Shown here one piece after another: positions 24,758 to 25,713 of a stretch of 64,000 nucleotides of DNA. Numbering within the stretch: position 1 is the stretch's first letter; every line of letters starts with the position of its first letter. The notes beneath the pieces were generated by a model, which saw only the letters and a list, made by a program, of their open reading frames with translations, searched no databases and had not been told where the DNA came from. Origin of the DNA: Candidatus Chlorohelix allophototropha (GTDB taxonomy: Bacteria > Chloroflexota > Chloroflexia > Chloroheliales > Chloroheliaceae); NCBI RefSeq assembly GCF_030389965.1, contig NZ_CP128400.1:1240001-1304000 (forward strand), given 5' to 3'. A program made the position numbers and the translations under genes.

Positions 24758-25462
24758 TTACATTTCTAACTGCACCAGCTTGAAACTTTCGCCGAACTCA
24801 AAAGATTGTTCTTTGGCGGCATCCTGAGCGCGTTTTGTCATCCGTTCCATGAAAGCCGGATTGTCCATACTGAATTGGCTAGGATGCTTGCGCATTGCCT
24901 CAAATTTCAATTCAAGTGTATCGCTTATGTCGCTTACATAATCGGGGTCATCTGTACCGAACAATAGCAGCCGTTTGGTGCGGTGTACACTTAGCCCTTC
25001 CTTGCGAAGATGCTCCGGGTAGCTGTGCGGCATCATTGCGGCGGGAAAAGCCGCATCAAGTGTTGCTTGACCGCAAGCGCGATGATCGGGATGCATACGA
25101 TAGAGGCGCGTTAACGGATCCCATGTAAAAATTACTTCCGGTTTGAAGCGGCGAATCTCGCGTACTATCAATCCTCGCAATTCAAGATTATTGACAACCT
25201 CACCATCACTCAAGCGCAGGAAGGTACAACCCGCCACCCCAAGTATTTTTGCTGCTTCAAGTTGTTCCTGTTCGCGAATCTGGCGTAATTCAGCTAGATC
25301 GGCTTCTGGGTCTTCAGAGCCTTTGTCACCACTGGTCAACATCAGATAGTGGATTTCACAACCCGCCCGTGTCCATTTTGCAACTGTACCGGCGCAACCA
25401 AACTCAGCATCATCAGGGTGTGCGCCAACTACCAAGGCGCTATGCGGAATTTCTATATTCAT
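24758..25462 (-). CDS. PIG-L/LmbE-family deacetylase
   Basis: 234 residues with the zinc-binding AHPDDAE motif at residues 14-20 and the second His motif HPDHRACG. Members remove the N-acetyl group from GlcNAc-containing substrates, for example in mycothiol and bacillithiol synthesis; the substrate here is not determined. AGGAGGG lies upstream of the ATG at 25462, at an unusually long spacing of about 13 nt. A terminator-like hairpin (25490-25526) lies between this gene and a structured leader with a mini-gene, so expression may depend on read-through. Confidence 0.87.
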   Translation of the reverse strand: MNIEIPHSALVVGAHPDDAEFGCAGTVAKWTRAGCEIHYLMLTSGDKGSEDPEADLAELRQIREQEQLEAAKILGVAGCTFLRLSDGEVVNNLELRGLIVREIRRFKPEVIFTWDPLTRLYRMHPDHRACGQATLDAAFPAAMMPHSYPEHLRKEGLSVHRTKRLLLFGTDDPDYVSDISDTLELKFEAMRKHPSQFSMDNPAFMERMTKRAQDAAKEQSFEFGESFKLVQLEM

Positions 25463-25489: not shown

Positions 25490-25526
25490 AAAAAGCCGCA
25501 ACCAGCTTGCTGGCATGCGGCTTTTT
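25490..25526. terminator. Strong bidirectional terminator hairpin upstream of the PIG-L gene
   Basis: AAAAAGCCGCA (25490-25500) pairs with TGCGGCTTTTT (25516-25526), with an inner CCAGC/GCTGG stem. T runs follow on both strands. On the minus strand it ends the transcript carrying the 14-codon gene, 29 nt before the PIG-L start. Confidence 0.88.
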
Positions 25527-25530
25527 TTAT

Positions 25531-25634
25531 ACTGCCGAGGCAGTTAGTGGGGCATCGCAGGCGATCTAGCGAACCAGACCTCCGGCGATGCCCTTACGGT
25601 TATCAATCATGGGCATCACCTCCTTTTACTTCTA
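25531..25634 (-). promoter_or_regulatory. Structured leader with three alternative pairing arms
   Basis: On the minus-strand RNA, arm A GATGCCC (25611-25617) directly precedes the mini-gene ATG. Arm B GGGCATCGCC (25584-25593) lies inside the ORF. Arm C GCGATGCCCC (25549-25558) follows the ORF. B can pair with A over 7 bp, covering the start region, or with C over 9 bp, freeing it. A further CTGCC/GGCAG hairpin (25531-25544) and the terminator follow. This arrangement resembles an RNA switch or attenuator; its ligand or signal is unknown. Confidence 0.5.
25566..25610 (-). CDS. 14-residue mini-gene with perfect Shine-Dalgarno sequence
   Basis: ATG at 25610 to TAG at 25566 encodes MIDNRKGIAGGLVR. 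AAAAGGAGGTGAT, a near-complete complement of the 16S rRNA 3' end, lies 8 nt before the ATG. A promoter with perfect TTGACA lies 54-60 nt upstream and a strong terminator follows. It may be a leader peptide controlling the PIG-L gene or an independent small peptide. No family is recognised. The signal that it is translated is the ribosome binding site; conservation cannot be judged here. Confidence 0.5.
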   Translation of the reverse strand: MIDNRKGIAGGLVR

Positions 25635-25640
25635 ACAAGC

Positions 25641-25669
25641 TATATGAGATTTTGGTTAAAGCTTGTCAA
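25641..25669 (-). promoter_or_regulatory. Promoter of the mini-gene transcript
   Basis: On the minus strand TTGACA (25664-25669) is followed after 17 nt by CATATA (25641-25646). The predicted start leaves a leader of only about 25 nt before the mini-gene ATG. Confidence 0.55.
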
Positions 25670-25713
25670 AAGCATAATAGCATTCTGAAGATATAAAGTC
25701 AATAGGTAAGCAA

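Follow-up and report, generated by a model that had tools for sequence, protein, structure and literature searches.

A class-wide mini-gene of the Chloroflexia as a candidate translation-driven RNA switch

Ribosome-driven refolding of RNA is a known principle, exemplified by the leader-peptide attenuators of the trp and ermC type, which share with the element described here a short open reading frame (ORF), a strong Shine–Dalgarno (SD) sequence and alternative pairings set by the position of the ribosome, a dependence that is proposed for the element. Reading frames carried by regulatory RNAs can be very small, spfP being a tiny ORF. It is found in Spot 42, an example of a dual-function sRNA (PMC11955535). 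The Downstream-peptide and Yfr6 RNAs of cyanobacteria are small transcripts in which a short ORF with indels in multiples of three lies beside a conserved RNA structure, this structure being placed in the 5' UTR, before an ORF of 17–100 codons, and proposed to bind a ligand (PMC2864571). In arfA mRNA (PMC10107115) an RNA hairpin is linked to the loss of the stop codon and to the state of the ribosome, a relation that the present element may share. The element differs from the attenuators in that no downstream gene is consistently regulated, the terminator lies outside the switch, the mini-ORF has its own SD sequence sequestered and an apical loop contains the stop codon. Unlike that of the Downstream-peptide and Yfr6 RNAs, its structure overlaps the ORF from the SD sequence to beyond the stop codon, and it has no match in Rfam. 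Like Spot 42/SpfP it is predicted to be a short independent transcript that contains a tiny ORF; in the dual-function sRNAs, however, the main role is that of a base-pairing sRNA and the ORF comes second, whereas here the SD sequence, start codon, ORF and stop codon are themselves the arms of the putative switch.

The window, a stretch of 64,000 nt from the genome of Candidatus Chlorohelix allophototropha (contig NZ_CP128400.1, positions 1,240,001 to 1,304,000), carries on its minus strand a stand-alone gene composed of a sigma-70 promoter, a perfect SD sequence, a 14-codon ORF and a terminator, with a peptide deformylase gene upstream and a PIG-L gene (Pfam PF02585) downstream. This anatomy is near certain, and an earlier note made on this DNA had correctly recognised the ideal SD sequence, the ORF, the terminator and the PIG-L gene beyond it. 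The promoter (TTGACT-17-TATTAT, 25674–25702), which has an extended −10 element (TGC), matches the consensus at 10 of 12 positions and places the predicted transcript start near 25667. The SD sequence AAAAGGAGGTGAT (25615–25627) is nearly invariant in the alignments and complements about 12 nt of the 3' end of 16S rRNA. The bases that separate its core from the start codon make up arm A (GGTGATGCCC, 25611–25620). The ORF (MIDNRKGIAGGLVR followed by TAG, 25566–25610) runs from the ATG at 25610 to the stop codon at 25568–25566 and contains arm B (GGGCATCGCC, 25584–25593), and arm C (GCGATGCCC, 25550–25558) is located 3' of the stop codon. Between arms B and C, folding and family comparison place an inner hairpin, GGTCTGG-TTCG-CTAGATC (25563–25580), that extends the B:C helix and carries the stop codon at its apex. 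The intrinsic terminator (25490–25528), assigned from sequence and fold, ends ahead of the ATG of the PIG-L gene at 25462. Arms A and B form 10 pairs, one of them G-U, so that the pairing proposed previously does exist but is longer than the 7 bp given for it; arms B and C form the 9 pairs anticipated, to which the inner hairpin is added. The fold of this region is better than those of dinucleotide shuffles (z of −3.3 and −4.7), none of the 200 shuffles being as good.

Of 61 genomes, more than 20 gave clear matches when the element was used as a blastn query. The pattern GGAGGTGATGCCNATGN{12,30}GGGNRTYRC was present in 84 of the 158 genomes of the class and its reversed control in none; therefore, the element is not a product of chance. 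The covariance-model search suggested in the earlier note was performed with a model built from 51 sequences and detected the element in 138 of the 158 class genomes, including 89 of the 93 of good quality, nearly always as a single copy per genome, and also in scattered other families of Chloroflexota. The class genomes presumably include Chloroflexus aggregans, Roseiflexus sp. RS-1, Herpetosiphon aurantiacus and Sphaerobacter; a Candidatus Chloroheliaceae MAG is a close relative of the genome of the window. Outside the class the same anatomy was seen in the six families inspected (f20, f34, f39, f42, f47 and f75), while the weaker covariance matches in further families may be due to chance. 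The pattern had no match in 2.9 million viral contigs and none in plasmids, and an origin from a phage, a plasmid or a repeat was discarded on these grounds and on that of the single copy per genome. A gene kept across nearly all genomes of a bacterial class is normally important.

The conservation and covariation of the arms in relatives, on which the proposal had been staked beforehand, were found in two sets of sequences, and the three arms with their two mutually exclusive helices are maintained across the more diverged one. In the B:C helix, 93.3% of the cells are paired in the set of 51 sequences, with 70 double-change cells against 25.9 in shuffled alignments, and 91.7% in the 66 more diverse sequences, with 62 against 18.5; in slid controls pairing does not exceed 55% and 48%, respectively. 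The A:B helix is paired in 95.7% (51 sequences, collected with a pattern that presupposed part of A and B) and 94.7% of the cells (66 diverged sequences, from covariance matches that did not need exact arms), as compared with at most 56% in the slid controls. Compensatory changes appear at two A:B pairs in the 66 sequences. Arm B varies almost solely where its pairing with A survives through G-U, and A:B double changes are few because arm A, being also the SD region, is nearly invariant. Only the outermost pair, A1:B10, departs from this rule, being absent from about a third of the members. Some families exchange both sides of the helix, as seen in f8 (GCTA/TAGC and GCGA/TCGC) and f20 (GCCT/AGGC), and f7 extends it with CCGG/CCGG or CCAG/CTGG; in f34 the partner of arm B is the SD core (GGAGG/CCTCC), and arm C is altered to match. 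In these alignments covariation supports B:C strongly and A:B mostly through wobble pairs, a wobble-preserving variation that might in part be mimicked by a constraint on coding. In energy the two folds differ little, the minimum-energy structure containing B:C in 101 of 129 elements and A:B in 38, under criteria that overlap. The energy models prefer B:C for many members but A:B for some, so that the resting state is perhaps not the same in all species.

Comparison also supports the limits of the gene. Among the 128 elements whose upstream sequence was long enough, a near-consensus sigma-70 promoter recurs, usually 35–60 nt 5' of the SD sequence (mean score of 6.8, versus 4.7 in shuffled sequence), and it is present in nearly all class members with similar spacing and at a similar distance from the SD sequence. 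The TTGACA (25669) originally taken for the promoter has a poor −10 region and is probably wrong in view of this recurrence, for which reason it was replaced by the conserved promoter upstream of it. As a consequence, the leader measures about 43 nt instead of the 25 nt first assigned. At the other end, the terminator is a separate hairpin 3' of arm C that includes none of the three arms, and a strict terminator test was passed by 88 of 130 elements against 4 of 130 shuffled sequences, several of the failing elements having an imperfect stem. A transcript with its own promoter and terminator around a small ORF, as in the dual-function sRNAs, is thus predicted from the sequence. Within the leader, a small hairpin is tentatively placed just 5' of the SD sequence (GCTT-GTTAG-AAGT, 25628–25640), and variants occupy the same place in different families (GCC-GNNCA-GGC, ACC-GNNCAG-GGU and CUU-GUUAG-AAG), with a mean stem slightly higher than that of shuffles (3.6 versus 3.2). 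A conserved leader motif, CCGNNCAGGGNAAAGGAGG, was observed about 15–20 nt 5' of the SD sequence in most class members (25640–25628 in the window); it possibly forms a hairpin of 3–4 bp with a GNNCA loop. This motif resembles the ACCGUAGGGGAA stretch of 16S helix 45, perhaps by chance.

The ORF has a length of 12–17 codons in 128 of the 130 elements. Measured from the ATG, a fixed position within arm B lies at 19, 22, 25 or 28 nt, and hence in a single frame, in 65 of 66 diverged members, and the same frame is kept throughout the 90 members found with the pattern; the SD-to-ATG and stop-to-C spacings take values that are not in threes. This comparison argues that the mini-ORF is translated and favours the dependence on translation that had been proposed, so that, as in the attenuators, a probably translated short ORF would lie over two mutually exclusive helices. 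A strongly conserved frame could also indicate that the peptide of 13–17 residues is the product that matters, a microprotein whose translation is limited by the structure sequestering the SD sequence, and the recurrence of the pattern M-S-S-H-G..G-I-T..E-V in several families points in the same direction. The conserved G-I/V-T/A of this pattern is, however, forced by arm B, residues 2 and 3, like the C-terminal residue, are highly variable, and serine is encoded mainly by AGT (200 of 292 codons), which suggests a constraint on the RNA. Purifying selection on the peptide outside arm B does exist but is weak (pN/pS of 0.60–0.73). Given this weak constraint and the predominance of AGT, the act of translation seems to outweigh its product, and a functional microprotein is considered unlikely.

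The region around the stop codon revealed a feature that the earlier note lacks: the B:C helix forms the lower part of a long hairpin, of approximately 18–24 bp, whose inner stem closes over this codon. In 96 of 130 elements the stop codon falls in the apical loop and in 121 it is within 3 nt of it, and the inner segment is more stable than its shuffles in 125 of 130 (mean of −10.5 versus −6.0 kcal/mol). Arm B starts 25 nt 5' of the stop codon, sometimes 22 or 28 nt, and within 22–28 nt in nearly all of 90 elements; the size of the ribosome footprint places it just behind a terminating ribosome. A ribosome that holds the stop codon in its A site would therefore already have melted the 5' side of the hairpin in full, with arm B emerging behind it near arm A. 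The stop codons of the 130 mini-ORFs are TAG (92), TAA (34) and TGA (4), as compared with TGA (216), TAG (167) and TAA (87) in ORFs of at least 250 codons from the same loci, a control that includes some spurious ORFs and in which related sequences are not independent. The scarcity of TGA could mean that termination relies on release factor 1 or that the apical loop restricts the choice of codon. SD-like bases near the stop codon (GGAGG in 45 of 130 elements, GAGG or GGAG in 47) were discarded as a pause site and are not independent evidence, because they also make up the 5' side of the inner hairpin.

Our main reading, to which we assign a probability of about one half, is that the element is an autonomous gene for a structured mini-mRNA of about 175 nt that would act as an RNA switch driven by translation. 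At rest, arms B and C would be paired, so that the SD sequence would be accessible and the long hairpin would hold the stop codon in its apical loop. A ribosome would load on the very strong SD sequence, read approximately 14 codons and open the entire 5' side of the hairpin, so that the stop codon would reach the A site exactly at the apex. Arm B, lying just behind the ribosome, would then snap onto arm A, closing the SD sequence and freeing arm C. A single passage would in this way convert an open form with C hidden into a closed form with C free, and slow refolding would reset it. Both the order of folding and the role of the ribosome as trigger are read from the geometry of the element. 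The state of the RNA would report initiation or termination capacity, and the output would probably be exerted through the RNA itself (the free C arm, its stability or its processing) and not through a downstream gene. We regard as tentative, and on balance doubtful, the broader reading in which a stand-alone RNA, class-wide and probably with a housekeeping role, would detect translation through being translated itself. The passage of one ribosome would then toggle a two-state switch built from the SD sequence, start codon, frame and stop codon, with an output in trans. If true, this would be a minimal translation sensor, a mini-mRNA answering to ribosomes via its own start and stop codons and lacking a downstream gene.

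Two other roles linked to the ribosome were weighed against this switch. In a nonstop sensor of the arfA type, RNase III would cut the stop hairpin, the ORF would lose its stop codon and the RNA would report ribosome-rescue capacity; a stem of this length with the stop codon at its apex would suit a double-strand cut. The arfA gene encodes a longer protein and has neither a competing SD arm nor a hairpin centred on the stop codon with a competing upstream arm. The mini-ORF peptide is far too short for ArfA, and the arfA system needs no A:B competitor, which makes this role quite improbable here even though arfA mRNA has no stop codon and is under repression by trans-translation (PMC10107115). 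Alternatively, the RNA could be a sponge for ribosomes or for 30S subunits, its nearly invariant SD complement titrating the latter while the switch tunes the number bound. The strong promoter agrees with such a role as does the extent of the complementarity, but a sponge leaves the frame conservation, the narrow range of ORF lengths and the stop codon in the loop unexplained, and we consider it very unlikely.

The genes around the element bear on the two remaining explanations. In nine families, at 57 loci in all, a LysM lipoprotein gene with the same orientation directly precedes the element, an arrangement that is apparently ancestral. In two of these loci its positions relative to the SD sequence are −662 to −86 (L013) and −462 to −63 (L163), and in the latter, from a Herpetosiphon-like genome, the element promoter overlaps the end of the LysM gene. 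The neighbourhood could mean that the element is a 3' element of the LysM gene, acting on termination or stability, and not a separate gene. This is the explanation we consider least credible, as a conserved near-consensus promoter lies between the two or overlaps the end of the LysM gene, and the loci of f1 (the family of the window) and those inspected in f3, f14 and f20 keep an intact element with no LysM gene clustered upstream of it.

On the downstream side, the earlier note had favoured leader-peptide control of PIG-L, in which the position of the ribosome on the mini-ORF would set transcription or translation of the following gene. Two exclusive folds over an ORF are the classic kit of an attenuator, and all five f1 loci have PIG-L downstream in the same orientation. 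No PIG-L gene was found within 2.5 kb outside f1, however, and the downstream genes vary by family (rplY, a metal-dependent repressor, a methyltransferase, DUF1684, a GDSL lipase). In 32 loci of f9, f10 and f13 the adjacent gene, rplY (L25), is convergent and therefore not under cis control by the element. The conserved same-direction downstream gene or operon typical of attenuators is thus missing, and neither alternative fold is a terminator or blocks a downstream SD sequence, the terminator hairpin being separate from the arms. As no downstream gene is conserved, its regulation is not the conserved function; a PIG-L riboregulator was discarded on grounds of synteny, and an attenuator in general has a very low probability.

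The autonomous switch considered here would be novel in being a class-wide gene whose SD sequence, start codon, frame and stop codon are the switch, a combination for which no precedent was found; to our knowledge, no autonomous, ancient gene made of nothing but ribosome-driven refolding has been described. No match at or above the gathering score was obtained in Rfam with the window and with the element of 13 relatives, and a lenient threshold gave chance-level matches only. No described element with these features was found in the literature either, the coverage of which was partial, so that absence is not proof and the word new refers to Rfam and the literature searched. The claim that no element of this layout had been described is in agreement with these searches. 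Chloroflexi-1 (RF01698), the Rfam motif named for the phylum, was rejected as a counterpart, since among five genomes tested it matched only the C. aggregans-like one (G059), at five other positions (822–881 kb, with the element at 2,337 kb). Four of these five copies (G059:C1, 822346–880748) are spaced by about 2.7 kb.

Three further observations were made at individual loci. A T-box leader is found near the element in an f3 genome (L087, 339–581, minus strand). In the Herpetosiphon-like locus L163 (2427–4101, minus strand) a convergent 23S rRNA gene is located about 350 nt downstream of the element. At L091 (G132:C533), two elements lie face to face with overlapping 3' ends, each predicted transcript being partly antisense to the other, and the usual terminator is absent from both.
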